DNA of 64,000 bases, taken from assembly GCF_030517065.1 (NCBI RefSeq), contig NZ_CP103950.1:186001-250000 (forward strand). The letters are read 5' to 3'. Shown piece by piece: positions 19,971-63,621 of this stretch. Position numbers and translations under genes: made by a program. This DNA is from Riemerella columbina (lineage in GTDB: Bacteria > Bacteroidota > Bacteroidia > Flavobacteriales > Weeksellaceae). Position 1 is the first letter of the stretch. Every line of letters begins with the position of its first letter. The notes under the pieces were generated by a model. It saw only the letters and a list, made by a program, of their open reading frames with translations. It was not told where the DNA came from and did no database searches.

Positions 19971-21068
19971 TTAATTATCGGTTTCTGCGGTTTTAGCTCT
20001 TAAAAAGCTCAGGATTTTCCAGCCTAAATCATCACATTTTTTTAAAATTTGAGCGATGATGATGGCGAGCCCAATATTGATAGGGAAAATGATAAGCATC
20101 AGCCCCCACCAAGGCATTTCATCTTTAAGCGGTGTAACGATGAAATAAATTAAAGAAGAGCTGATCCCTTGCGCAAAATAATAAAAAATAGCATTGCGTC
20201 CTATGGTATTAACAAAGTGATTTTTAGTGATTTTCAGTCGGTTATAGAATACAAATACGGTGATTAGAGAAAACATAGACCAAATGATATAAGGGAATTT
20301 TGGCGGAAATTTCAACTTATTGATTTTATAGAAAATATCTGTACCATAGCTCCAAAACATCAGCCCTAAGGCAAGAAAAAAGCCAAGGTAGAGCAAGGGA
20401 ATATAGCGGGTTTTAATCTTTTTGCCCCTCATTTTATGAGCGATAAGGAACACCCCGAGATAAAACGCCACATAGCCCACCTGCCCCGTAGGATAAAAAT
20501 AAGGGAAGATATTAAACATCAGAGTGAGCGCTAAACATAGGGCTATAAACCAGTAGATGTGTTTGGGGAAAAATTTGAGAATCAGCACGCCAAAAACGGT
20601 CAGTATGTAATAAACCTTCAAGTACCAAAAACTCCCCATCACCACAGGAAGAGTGTCGCAGGTAGAGTAGTGGTGCAGGTACCAGTTGCCTAAATTCTGC
20701 CATTCGGGGAAGTAAGAAATGCTTTTCGGGACAAACTTGCTGCCAAAAGTGGCGTAGAAATGCTTTAAACTCTCTATACCGAAAAAATAAAGTCCAAAAA
20801 CTTTGAAAAAATAATCCGCAAAGAAGAGTAGCGTTACAAAAATCATATAAGTGATTTGCAATTTTAGCAATCGGTGGAAGGTTTTTTCAAGATTGTTGCC
20901 AGAGGTAATGCCACTGAGCGCGAAGAAGATAGGCACATCAAACAATAGGGATAAAATCCTCAATTCCGTGGGGATGTAGTATTGTCCGCTCCAAAAAGTG
21001 GTGTGGATAAAAATAATGGAAAGCGTGGCTAAACCCTTCGCAAAATCAATATATAAATCTCTTTTCAT
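19971..21068 (-). CDS. Membrane acyltransferase family 3 (OafA/YrhL-like)
   Basis: This is an integral membrane protein of about 365 residues and roughly ten helices. The start (MKRDLYIDFAKGLATLSIIF, with the conserved His in IHTTFW) matches the amino motif of acyltransferases that modify surface sugars. Further features are DVPIFFALSGITSG and WYLKVYYILTVFGVLIL. The start at 21068 is preferred because residues encoded upstream of it do not resemble the family. The substrate is unknown. Modification of lipopolysaccharide or capsule would fit the neighbouring glycosyltransferases, though those face the other way. Confidence 0.85.
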   Translation of the reverse strand: MKRDLYIDFAKGLATLSIIFIHTTFWSGQYYIPTELRILSLLFDVPIFFALSGITSGNNLEKTFHRLLKLQITYMIFVTLLFFADYFFKVFGLYFFGIESLKHFYATFGSKFVPKSISYFPEWQNLGNWYLHHYSTCDTLPVVMGSFWYLKVYYILTVFGVLILKFFPKHIYWFIALCLALTLMFNIFPYFYPTGQVGYVAFYLGVFLIAHKMRGKKIKTRYIPLLYLGFFLALGLMFWSYGTDIFYKINKLKFPPKFPYIIWSMFSLITVFVFYNRLKITKNHFVNTIGRNAIFYYFAQGISSSLIYFIVTPLKDEMPWWGLMLIIFPINIGLAIIIAQILKKCDDLGWKILSFLRAKTAETDN

Positions 21069-21312
21069 AAGCATCAAAAAAAGGAAAATCAAAGATAGGC
21101 AATTATCAGTATATAATAAAAATCGCTCGGCATTTTTTCTCAATTTATGAATTTTTTTATATTTGAATTATAAAAAGTCTAAAAAACGCCAACCTATGAA
21201 ATTATCCTTGCCAAAAAGCAAATTGCGGGACAAAATAACCTTATAGAGTTAGAATAGGACACATTCCTAAAAATAATTTGAGGTTAAGTATTTGTAATTC
21301 AAAAAAAATGCT

Positions 21313-60784: not shown

Positions 60785-61552
60785 TTAAGAATTGACTTTT
60801 TTGAGCCAATAGTATAGAATTTCATTAAACTCTTGAGGTTTCTCCATCATAGCGGCGTGTCCACATTCATCAATCCAATAGAGGTCAGAATTTGGAATGT
60901 GCTGATGCATATCTTCAGCCACCTCAGGCGGTGTCACATGGTCTTGTTTTCCCCAGATAAGGCAGGTTGGACAAGTGATTTTTGGGAGATCCTTCAGCAT
61001 ATTGTGTTTGATGGCACTGCGGGCGAGCATCACGGTTTTGATCCCCTTCATACGGTCATTAACCACCGCAAAAACCTCATCTACCAGAGCATCTGTCGCC
61101 ACTTCTGGATTATAAAAAACCTCTTGGGTTTTTCTTTTGATGTATTCCTTGTCGCTTTTTCTTGGAAAACTATCGCCGAAGGATTTTTCGTAAAGTCCAG
61201 AGCTGCCTGTCAGCACCAGATTTTTCACTAACTCGGGTTTTGCCAGCGTTAAAATTAAGCCAATATGTCCGCCCATAGAGTTGCCCACAAGGGTTACAGG
61301 CTTGCCGCCGACTTCTTGCTGGATAAATTTAGCCACATATTTAGAAATGGCGGTTAGGTTGGTGTTGAGCACAGGCAAATCATAGATGGGCAGCTCTGGC
61401 ACCAGTACTTTATAGCCTTTTTCCGAAAAAAAAGCAATGGTATCATCAAAATTGCTGAGGCCGCCCATCAGCCCGTGGAGAAGCACCATAGGGTGTCCTT
61501 CGCCCTCTTCTATGAAATTGAATTTTTTCTCTTTTTTGGTTTTAAAAATCAT
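60785..61552 (-). CDS. Alpha/beta-fold hydrolase
   Basis: The 255-residue protein has the oxyanion region HPMVLLHGLMGGLSNFDDT, nucleophile Ser in VTLVGNSMGGHIGLILTLA, Asp in LIWGKQDHVTPPEVAEDM and His in IDECGHAAMMEKP: a complete triad. The substrate is unknown. The start at 61552 (MIFKTKKEKKFNFIEE) is preferred over the longer frame because a -7 box (TATTTTTG, 61573-61580 on the minus strand) lies just upstream. Confidence 0.88.
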   Translation of the reverse strand: MIFKTKKEKKFNFIEEGEGHPMVLLHGLMGGLSNFDDTIAFFSEKGYKVLVPELPIYDLPVLNTNLTAISKYVAKFIQQEVGGKPVTLVGNSMGGHIGLILTLAKPELVKNLVLTGSSGLYEKSFGDSFPRKSDKEYIKRKTQEVFYNPEVATDALVDEVFAVVNDRMKGIKTVMLARSAIKHNMLKDLPKITCPTCLIWGKQDHVTPPEVAEDMHQHIPNSDLYWIDECGHAAMMEKPQEFNEILYYWLKKVNS

Positions 61553-61572
61553 AAAAACGCTACTATGACTCG

Positions 61573-61580
61573 CAAAAATA
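61573..61580 (-). promoter_or_regulatory. Promoter of the hydrolase-engB genes (TATTTTTG)
   Basis: This is a minus-strand -7 box 20 nt before the chosen hydrolase start. Confidence 0.5.
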
Positions 61581-61757
61581 CAAATTAAACACCAAACTCG
61601 CCGTATAAAAATTTTTTTTGTTTTACGCACTGCATAAAATCAAAGCGCCATAGGGCTTGGTTACGGCATTGTGGAATATTTAAAGAGGGCTTGTATTAAG
61701 ACAATCAAATGGTTACGAGGTTTTTGAGGCGAGAGAAAAAACTTATCAACAATAGGT

Positions 61758-61787
61758 TAAAAAGTGGTAAAAAGTGGTAAAGTTTGG
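61758..61787 (+). promoter_or_regulatory. Probable MraZ operator: three 10-bp direct repeats
   Basis: taaaaagtgg (61758-61767), taaaaagtgg (61768-61777) and taaagtttgg (61778-61787) repeat at exactly 10 bp. MraZ proteins bind short direct repeats upstream of their own gene. The third repeat covers the place of the -33 box, which would allow repression. Confidence 0.65.
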
Positions 61788-61798
61788 AAATTATTGAC

Positions 61799-61806
61799 TA
61801 ATTTTG
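61799..61806 (+). promoter_or_regulatory. mraZ promoter (TAATTTTG), nearly leaderless
   Basis: The -7 box ends six bases before the ATG at 61813. It directly follows the repeat operator. Confidence 0.6.
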
Positions 61807-61812
61807 TCCCAA

Positions 61813-62277
61813 ATGAATTACTTTTTTGAAACATATGAGTGTAAAATAGATGATAAAGGCAGGCTTAAACTCCCTTCGCCTTTGGCTAAGCACTTGGAAA
61901 CCCTGCAAGATGAGCGACTTATCGTGAAGCGTGCGGTGTTCCAGAATTGTTTAGAAGTCTATACCGAAACGCCGTGGAAACAACTAACGGCGCGCTTGAA
62001 CCAGTTGAACCGTTTCAAAAAGAGAAATACAGATTTTATCAGGCTCTTTACCGCTGGTGTAAAATCGGTGGAGATTGATAAATCTGAACGGATTTTAATC
62101 CCAAAAGATTTGAAGGATTTTGCCCAACTGAGCCGAGATATTGTGATTTCTGGCGTGGGCGAATTTTTTGAAATTTGGGATAAAACAGCCTACGAAGAGA
62201 ATATTCGCCTTAACGAAAATGATTTTGCGGAAATGGCGGAAGAGGTCATGGGGAATCCCGATACAGAGCAAGTTTAG
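61813..62277 (+). CDS. mraZ: Transcriptional regulator MraZ
   Basis: MraZ is a DNA-binding protein of the division and cell-wall cluster that regulates its own operon. Two SpoVT/AbrB-like repeats are visible: YECKIDDKGRLKLPSPLAKH at the start and VKSVEIDKSERILIPKDLKD in the second half. The 154-residue length is normal. The ATG at 61813 (MNYFFETYE) is chosen because the TTG three codons earlier lies inside the promoter. rsmH follows after 33 bp. Confidence 0.94.
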   Translation: MNYFFETYECKIDDKGRLKLPSPLAKHLETLQDERLIVKRAVFQNCLEVYTETPWKQLTARLNQLNRFKKRNTDFIRLFTAGVKSVEIDKSERILIPKDLKDFAQLSRDIVISGVGEFFEIWDKTAYEENIRLNENDFAEMAEEVMGNPDTEQV

Positions 62278-62310
62278 CCTTATTTTAAATTAAAAAATAC
62301 AACAAAAAAA

Positions 62311-63213
62311 GTGTACCATCAGCCTGTTTTATTAAAACCCAGTGTAGATGCGCTCGTGACCAACGAGGGTGGTATTTATGTGGACTGCACCTTTGGCGGC
62401 GGTGGCCACTCTAAGGAGATCCTTTCTCGGCTTTCGCCAGAGGGGCGTTTGTTTAGTTTTGATCAAGATTTAGATGCTTTGGAAAATGCCCTCAACCACG
62501 AACAATTTACGCTCATCAATCAGAATTTTAGGTTTTTAGAAAATGCATTGTTGATGTACGGCGTACAGCAAGTAGATGGTGTTTTGGCGGATTTGGGCGT
62601 GTCTTCTCATCAGTTTGATGCGGCAGAGCGTGGCTTTTCCATTCGCAGTGAGGCGCCTCTGGATATGCGGATGAACACTTTGCAAAAATTAGATGCCCAA
62701 ATGGTGGTTAACGAGTATGAGGAAGAGCATTTGGCGGACATTTTCTACCTCTACGGCGAGCTGAGAGAGGCACGAAAGTTGGCAAGGGAAATTGTACACC
62801 ATCGGAAAAATAAAAAGATAAAAACCACGGAAGATTTAAAGGCGCTATTCAGCTACATACCGCCACATCGGCAAAATAAATTTTTTGCTCAGGTGTTCCA
62901 AGCGATCAGGATTGAGGTCAACCAAGAATTGGAAGCCTTGAAAGAAATGCTCACGCAAGCTTATAAAATCTTGAAACCAGGTGGGCGATTGGTGGTCATT
63001 TCTTACCATTCTTTGGAGGACAGGTTGGTAAAGCGTTTTCTTAAAAATGGAATGTTTGAGGGAGAGCCAGAGCGAGATTTATACGGCAACTACCATAAAG
63101 CGTTTGATTTGCTACAAACCAAAGCCATCGTGCCTTCTCAAGAGGAGATAGAAAAAAATTCAAGGGCGAGAAGTGCTAAAATGAGAGTGGGTATTAAAAG
63201 AGAACAACAATAG
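62311..63213 (+). CDS. rsmH: 16S rRNA (cytosine-1402-N4)-methyltransferase RsmH
   Basis: RsmH methylates N4 of C1402 of 16S rRNA, the same nucleotide whose ribose is methylated by the rsmI product encoded at 9874. SAM-site motifs are GIYVDCTFGGGGHSKEILSR and FSFDQDLDALENA. Other landmarks are GVLADLGVSSHQFDAAERGF followed by SIRSEAPLDMRM, and VVISYHSLEDRLVKRFLK. The start is GTG at 62311 (opening YHQPVLLKP). It lies between mraZ and the ftsL-like gene, the standard order. Confidence 0.95.
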   Translation: MYHQPVLLKPSVDALVTNEGGIYVDCTFGGGGHSKEILSRLSPEGRLFSFDQDLDALENALNHEQFTLINQNFRFLENALLMYGVQQVDGVLADLGVSSHQFDAAERGFSIRSEAPLDMRMNTLQKLDAQMVVNEYEEEHLADIFYLYGELREARKLAREIVHHRKNKKIKTTEDLKALFSYIPPHRQNKFFAQVFQAIRIEVNQELEALKEMLTQAYKILKPGGRLVVISYHSLEDRLVKRFLKNGMFEGEPERDLYGNYHKAFDLLQTKAIVPSQEEIEKNSRARSAKMRVGIKREQQ

Positions 63214-63258
63214 AAAAAACAAAACACACCGCTGAAATATTCGGTGATCATTGAGATA

Positions 63259-63621
63259 ATGGCAAAAAAGAAGAATCATAATTATAAAAAAAAGAAATTC
63301 AATTTCGGGAGCCTCATCAAGGGGAACTTTCTCAACCGGGAGGAAGTAAGGCTGTACTATCGCTATGCAGGGCTATTGATGGTGATGATGGTTTTTATGA
63401 TTTACATCAATAATTTAGCCAATAATAAAGTTAAACAAATCAACGCCCTGAAGGAGAAAACCGAAGAATACAAATCCAGAAATGCCTATGCGCAAAGTAA
63501 ATTGATCAAAATAAAATTAGAAAGCCAGCTGGGGAAAGCGGTCATCAAAGACTCTTTGGTACCATTAGAAAATCATCCACATAAAATTTTAGTGAAAATA
63601 GACTCTATCCATGAAAAATAA
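63259..63621 (+). CDS. FtsL-like cell-division protein
   Basis: The 120-residue protein has a basic cytoplasmic head (MAKKKNHNYKKKKFNFGSL), one membrane helix (YAGLLMVMMVFMIYINNLAN, about 40-59) and a periplasmic coiled coil (VKQINALKEKTEEYKSRNAY). This topology and the position between rsmH and a penicillin-binding protein gene identify it as the FtsL equivalent of Bacteroidota, although sequence similarity in this family is low. The ATG at 63259 is preferred over an earlier in-frame codon. It overlaps the next gene by 11 bases. Confidence 0.82.
   Translation: MAKKKNHNYKKKKFNFGSLIKGNFLNREEVRLYYRYAGLLMVMMVFMIYINNLANNKVKQINALKEKTEEYKSRNAYAQSKLIKIKLESQLGKAVIKDSLVPLENHPHKILVKIDSIHEK

Follow-up and report, generated by a model that had tools for sequence, protein, structure and literature searches.

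To our knowledge, how bacteria couple division to replication is an old open question, and we know of little work on it in Bacteroidota. The E. coli mraZ promoter is of the sigma70 type, and its operator is said to carry TGGG repeats, reportedly described by Eraso et al. in 2014; the mollicute MraZ boxes, AAAGTG[T/G], are reported to go back to Fisunov et al. in 2016. MraZ represses in E. coli and M. genitalium, and the core of the mollicute repeat is AAAGTG[T/G] (PMC8475190). MraZ has been reported to bind over a DnaA box at the E. coli mioC promoter (PMC4446571), upstream of which TTTTCCACA is present; MraZ and DnaA sites are therefore known to meet elsewhere. DnaA has also been linked to division genes, namely ftsL of B. 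subtilis, ftsZ of Caulobacter and, through boxes within the genes, ftsQA of E. coli (PMC10532879). Here, the mraZ promoter of Riemerella columbina was analyzed in a window of 64,000 nt (186001–250000 of the 2.04 Mb genome, a single contig). A DnaA-box-like 9-mer, conserved through much of the class, stands just upstream of the MraZ boxes at this promoter, and it was overlooked in an earlier, sequence-only reading of the same DNA.

As in E. coli, where MraZ autorepresses the division and cell wall (dcw) cluster, direct repeats of 10-bp period lie upstream of mraZ (TGGG in E. coli, read as a control; PMC4446571, PMC8475190). The core AAAGTGG, in direct repeats before mraZ, is that of the mollicute boxes, for which the accessible text of PMC8475190 does not mention a DnaA-box-like neighbor. 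Unlike those of E. coli, the Riemerella boxes lie at a promoter of the Bacteroidota type, for which a leader of 1–2 nt is predicted. At mioC, too, sites for MraZ and DnaA occur together at one promoter, but that target lies outside the dcw cluster, whereas the putative pairing in Riemerella is at mraZ itself and is spread over the class. The replication initiator likewise acts on or is sited near division genes in the case of B. subtilis ftsL, Caulobacter ftsZ and E. coli ftsQA, but the genes and the positions are different, and no DnaA box in an mraZ operator appears in the accessible text of PMC10532879. No description of a DnaA box at an mraZ promoter was found in the literature on DnaA with mraZ or dcw or on Bacteroidota mraZ, subscription papers being mostly outside reach, and nothing relevant was found in the literature on MraZ structure. 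The new part would be the DnaA-box-like element joined to the MraZ operator through much of the class; the protein that binds it is a strong but unproven guess. The elements of the promoter are as follows.

61739..61742, plus strand: end of the A-tract and a C (AAAC) before the 9-mer; AAA[CG]TTWTNMACA has its sole match in the window at 61739
61743..61751, plus strand: DnaA-box-like 9-mer TTATCAACA, at about −68 to −60, of the form TTWTNMACA and in fixed helical phase to the −7 box
61748..61757, plus strand: phased 10-bp position AACAATAGGT, non-canonical here, a canonical MraZ box in many upstream regions from outside Weeksellaceae
61758..61767, plus strand: MraZ box 1, TAAAAAGTGG, from direct reading, Tandem Repeats Finder (TRF) and shuffles
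61768..61777, plus strand: MraZ box 2, TAAAAAGTGG, with GTGG at 61774–61777, the place expected for the −33 TTTG
61778..61787, plus strand: degenerate third unit TAAAGTTTGG, lacking the GTGG core and sharing 7 of 10 letters with box 1
61799..61806, plus strand: Bacteroidota −7 element TAATTTTG (consensus TANNTTTG), from direct reading, at a conserved position
61811..61812, plus strand: predicted +1 from the geometry of F. johnsoniae promoters, giving a leader of 1–2 nt

Within 110 nt of the start codon, TTWTNMACA was found in 87 of 88 distinct upstream regions from the organism's own family (Weeksellaceae, f1), in 72 of 77 from the rest of the order and in 51 of 76 from the rest of the class, compared with 2.5, 2.4 and 2.5 on average, and at most 5, 7 and 9, in 50 dinucleotide shuffles. 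A further 37 regions, each a stretch of 220 nt, came from outside the class (38 entries were listed, but L260 duplicates an order-level genome). The regions read were those of the window, of 67 relatives taken by genome and of 80 named loci (the best 80, with family labels assigned from their names), together 148 loci and 116 distinct upstreams, followed by 46 loci of the order, 49 at the level of the phylum (12 of them in the class) and 70 at the level of the class (six from the same family or order). They are a subset of the genomes searched; of 134 same-class genomes with a match, for example, 64 were read.

Among control patterns in the same three groups, the reversed pattern gave 0, 2 and 3 matches, the complement 4, 8 and 9, and three permutations 4, 33 and 9; 3, 6 and 1; and 1, 2 and 4. 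The 33 of 77 obtained with the first permutation is no independent control, because a one-base shift of the element (TATTAACAA) can satisfy this pattern. If AAAA follows an MraZ box, the two together can match TTWTNMACA on the reverse strand; for this reason, reverse-strand matches (1 of 88, 3 of 77 and 23 of 76 in the three groups, and 6 of 37 beyond the class) were given no weight as support. Two loci of one family of the class (L210 and L236, f15) carry a reverse TGTGGAAAACTTTTTTGTGG before the MraZ boxes, possibly a flipped DnaA-type box, though confounded with the MraZ-box sequence. Two others (L199 and L200, family f8 of the order) lack the 9-mer and have in common the stretch GGAGGGTAAAATGTCGTAT before the assigned start, the position of which is uncertain.

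The 9-mer is conserved together with the end of the A-tract that precedes it. Across 229 loci, the mraZ upstreams hold 164 matches to AAA[CG]TTWTNMACA and the other 1.36 million strand bases of these loci hold two, a density about 4400 times higher in the mraZ upstreams. Conservation begins at the A-tract, at 1.58 and 1.09 bit, the preceding 29 nt showing 0.17–0.18 bit per position (36 and 75 representatives of <80% identity, picked for having the 9-mer and the −7 word at the usual gap, so that invariant letters there are no independent evidence).

The distance from the 9-mer to the −7 element moves in helical steps. The gap to TANNTTT[GA] is 47–48 nt in 79 of 87 and 37–38 nt in 7 of 87 upstreams of the same family; it is 36–39 nt in 60 of 66 from the rest of the order and 37–39 nt in 30 of 37 from the rest of the class, counts that leave out the site-bearing upstreams without TANNTTT[GA] after the boxes (6 of 72 and 14 of 51, respectively). 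The difference between the groups equals one helical turn and the length of one MraZ box. Measured from the start of the 9-mer, the first box follows at 20 nt in 74 of 87 upstreams of f1; the value is 10–11 nt in 62 of 72 from other families of the order and in 37 of 51 from other orders of the class. The neighboring gene, a hydrolase/ysxC on the minus strand at 60785–61630, is divergent, and the 9-mer might serve its transcript and not that of mraZ. The middle half of the distances from the 9-mer to a divergent open reading frame (ORF) is indeed fairly narrow in the family (quartiles 178, 195 and 202 nt; 116 of 120 loci have such an ORF). The full range, with ORF starts set mechanically, is nevertheless 7–1147 nt in f1 and 24–1102 nt in the other loci (quartiles 154, 201 and 270 nt; 101 of 118), as against a distance to the −7 element of mraZ that is fixed to helical steps, and a role in the divergent transcript is very improbable.

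The phasing could also be read as part of an ordinary MraZ operator, in which the 9-mer and the A-tract form the outer MraZ footprint, a contact made by the end of the ring, with no second protein. In most upstreams the 9-mer is indeed in 10-bp phase with the boxes, and it accompanies mraZ in most genomes examined. Its sequence, however, is unlike the core of the box. Phased boxes are present in 24 of 37 mraZ upstreams from other classes of Bacteroidota (in the 220-nt stretch), and the 9-mer in 5 of 37; the boxes of E. coli also lack an adjoining site. The genomes without mraZ bear on this point as well. The gene is missing in 3 of 148 genomes of the family and 49 of 392 of the order, and 17 of the 20 mraZ-less genomes listed for the order belong to one family with genomes of 0.3–0.6 Mb, which we take to be Blattabacterium and its kin. 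Blattabacterium Bge is without dnaA (PMC2768785). The region upstream of rsmH was read in eight mraZ-less genomes, five outside this reduced-genome family and three within it. G021 (L049) has retained AAAACTTATGAACA and TAATTTTG, separated by 37 nt, together with a single MraZ box, and G028 (L050) keeps AAAAGTTATTCACA and TAATTTTG, 26 nt apart, and no MraZ box. The upstream site thus outlived MraZ and the decayed boxes in two genomes, which are possibly not independent. Taken together, an outer MraZ footprint seems unlikely, and a separate protein probably occupies the 9-mer. The three genomes of the reduced-genome family have no forward 9-mer upstream of rsmH. G002 has one reverse TTTTGAACA there, and in the same genome (L048, ∼1245–1365) five near-tandem units of ∼20 bp around agtcagtttttgaaaaa precede rsmH, with no mraZ operator.

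Several properties of the 9-mer are those of a DnaA box. The fifth position is degenerate (T53, C45, A11 and G6 among the mraZ 9-mers; solely C or T outside the order), the third is A or T, and the exact TTATCCACA is found in 11 of 116 mraZ upstreams, with TTTTCCACA as the mraZ element in two families of the class (f19 and f43). The window's TTATCAACA fits TTWTCAACA, the form proposed for the mollicute DnaA box in a review that questions its coverage of phytoplasmas (PMC3322544), and is itself one of the predicted boxes of the origin on the linear chromosome of Cyanothece (PMC4674748). Domain IV of DnaA is kept in this genome (match to 1j1v, E 2.9e-16), reading KDHSTV compared with RDHTTV in E. 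coli. In the domain IV sequence (L072, 6105–6380) the DHTT signature thus reads DHST.

Other observations weigh against DnaA as the binding protein. The working consensus of the DnaA box is TTWTNCACA (PMC7561715), from which TTATCAACA departs by one mismatch, A6; C6 is a minority at mraZ (19 of 115 distinct upstreams), the sixth position being mostly A. A candidate cluster of DnaA boxes in this genome, at 703251–709613, holds seven TTWTNCACA-type sites in 6.4 kb, and all seven have C6. The 9-mer of the mraZ promoter does not have the form of this cluster, and the one TTATGAACA nearby, at 700013, is 3.2 kb off. The TTATCCACA boxes predicted with at most one mismatch at the origin of Elizabethkingia meningoseptica (PMC8994065) have C6 too. 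In the 14 kb around dnaA, the single TTWTNMACA is TTTTCCACA, inside dnaA itself. Within the class but outside the order, 25 of 76 upstreams have no such site, as do most of those from outside the class, and the forward 9-mer is absent from the rsmH upstream of the mraZ-less G002, G156 and G157, three of the five outside the reduced-genome family. In the 334 nt upstream of E. coli mraZ, TTWTNMACA occurs once, as TTTTCCACA in reverse orientation about 190 nt ahead of the boxes, and none adjoins them. Finally, conservation of the A-tract comes close to that of the 9-mer, and a plain DnaA box should not require such a tract. Since the window site does not have the defining C6, the 9-mer is termed DnaA-box-like here and not a DnaA box.

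Some of these points suit a different Bacteroidia regulator with a TTWTNMACA-type site, or an UP-type promoter element formed by the A-tract. The conserved A-tract, the near confinement of the full element to mraZ promoters in the loci examined and the deviation of A6 from the common DnaA consensus would all be accounted for. A pure UP element, however, has no need for ACA at positions 7–9, and the free fifth position, the A or T at the third and the exact TTATCCACA or TTTTCCACA in several lineages are matches to DnaA boxes, which leaves another regulator or an UP element rather unlikely. We think that the 9-mer acts like a DnaA box, perhaps as a weak site, and identification of the protein there as DnaA is slightly favored.

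The candidate cluster at 703251–709613 (L153, 7251–13613) is far from dnaA (1484104–1485565) and may be an origin or a region of DnaA titration; GC skew, read in a few stretches, gave no clear sign for or against oriC. A genome-wide search for direct pairs of TTATNCACA within 30 nt found none. The reverse TTTTCCACA of E. coli K-12 (L155, 91–99) lies ∼240 nt before mraZ.

The MraZ box array upstream of mraZ, the subject of the sequence-only reading, is confirmed. Boxes 1 and 2 and the third unit run head to tail in an exact 10-bp register over 61758–61787, with 11 bases between the third unit and TAATTTTG and six bases (TCCCAA) from TAATTTTG to the ATG at 61813, all as had been read. TRF, run on 61000–62500, returned a single array of period 10 and 2.4 copies at 61758–61781. 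The claim of three repeats holds for two canonical boxes, each with AAAAAGTGG as the AAAGTG[T/G]-type core; the third copy is degenerate and lacks GTGG, which weakens the idea of three equal repeats. Among relatives, the third 10-bp position is often not box-like (GAGGTTTTAG, GAAATTTTGG; judged by eye). The paired box AAAGTGGNNNAAAGTGG occurs once in 64 kb, counting both strands, and in none of 100 dinucleotide shuffles.

Absence of the repeats from related mraZ promoters had been named as grounds for dropping the operator, and the relatives show the opposite. A pair of box-like words at a distance of exactly 10 bp was found in 87 of 88 upstreams of Weeksellaceae, 72 of 77 from other families of the order and 68 of 76 from other orders of the class, compared with maxima of 1, 2 and 1 in single-base shuffles. 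Among upstreams that hold the 9-mer, the 10-bp spacing of neighboring boxes is kept by 105 of 106 pairs in the family, by 126 of 132 in other families of the order and by 84 of 89 in other orders of the class. Weeksellaceae upstreams have two canonical boxes in 66 of 87 cases, three in 20 and one in 1, and three are usual beyond the family (59 of 72 in other families of the order, 35 of 51 in other orders of the class). The shuffles and this conservation exclude a chance or incidental tandem repeat, and the resemblance to boxes described elsewhere also stood, the core being that of the mollicutes and the period that of the E. coli TGGG repeats.

The −7 element is followed by the start codon at 6 nt in 75 of 88 Weeksellaceae, at 7 nt in 2 and at 10–19 nt in 11 (6–33 nt across the wider set of 116 distinct upstreams). 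The near-leaderless layout is therefore conserved in most of the family, in keeping with the proposed Bacteroidota-type promoter, for which the transcript start is predicted. In F. johnsoniae, the −7 element spans −12 to −5, with the start 4–5 nt downstream, and a −33 motif is much less evident (PMC6847099); here, 61775–61778 reads TGGT where the −33 TTTG is expected. This geometry places the boxes at about −53 to −24, with box 2 over the −33 region, and makes a transcript start at 61811–61812 quite likely. In F. psychrophilum, 5.5% of the mapped messages are leaderless (PMC9723704). A scan of 61500–61900 for a sigma70-type promoter gave one hit on each strand; the plus-strand hit lies inside mraZ, and none precedes the gene on that strand. 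The TTG at 61804, in frame and chosen by the ORF lister as the start of mraZ, falls within the −7 element and was rejected.

MraZ bound to the 10-bp repeats, at about −53 to −24, would cover the −33 region and block the near-leaderless mraZ promoter, resulting in direct negative feedback on mraZ, rsmH, ftsL and the genes behind them. The earlier proposal of direct self-repression of the division cluster gains support here, as a prediction from the position of the boxes and from MraZ in other bacteria. An activating MraZ, said to be described for some mollicutes, could be considered, as could an incidental origin of the repeats. The overlap of the boxes with the −33 region and repression by MraZ in E. 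coli and M. genitalium (PMC8475190) argue against activation, and neither alternative is at all likely. Binding and repression by MraZ are predicted with good confidence, and the site would be an MraZ operator of the ordinary kind, well conserved and set on a promoter that is nearly leaderless, a clean model of an autorepressor over the −33 region.

Combined with the upstream 9-mer, the self-regulated dcw promoter would be a composite operator of MraZ boxes and a site bound by DnaA, a reading toward which we lean with moderate confidence. DnaA bound at −68 to −60, and in most upstreams outside the family roughly one helical turn nearer, would leave the promoter unoccluded and stand at an activator-like distance. 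It might act as an upstream activator, as an anti-repressor displacing MraZ where the site abuts or overlaps the first box, or as both. Transcription of the dcw cluster would thereby be tied to the status of replication initiation, the operator reading the level of MraZ and, probably, DnaA. Whether the dcw promoter is such a DnaA-MraZ operator throughout Bacteroidia, with a dedicated weak site for the initiator that adjoins or overlaps the MraZ boxes on a fixed face of the helix, with the level or nucleotide state of the initiator setting dcw transcription by activation or by displacement of MraZ and with a site that can outlive MraZ, is evenly balanced on the comparisons made here. The second conserved site suggests a direct transcriptional link between replication and division that simple binding and reporter assays can test.

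The genes downstream of the operator are consistent with an MraZ operator upstream of an intact mraZ.

61813..62277, plus strand: mraZ, 154 aa (PF02381, E 2.8e-27; TIGR00242, 102 bits with a cut-off of 98)
62311..63213, plus strand: rsmH (mraW), next in the cluster (PF01795, E 2.3e-98; TIGR00006; searched as 62314–63210)
63244..63621, plus strand: ftsL-like gene, an ORF from the GTG at 63244 (PF19579, E 7.4e-15 on 63259–63618)

Two DXXXR motifs, a motif with a role in MraZ, are visible in the MraZ alignment. In four genomes (G588, G616, G638 and G016) the mraZ match contains one in-frame stop, from either a decayed gene or a match running past the end of the gene. Elsewhere in the window, at 20995–21010, AAAGTGG and a reverse TTATCCACA lie side by side within a minus-strand ORF of 390 aa (19971–21143), probably by coincidence.
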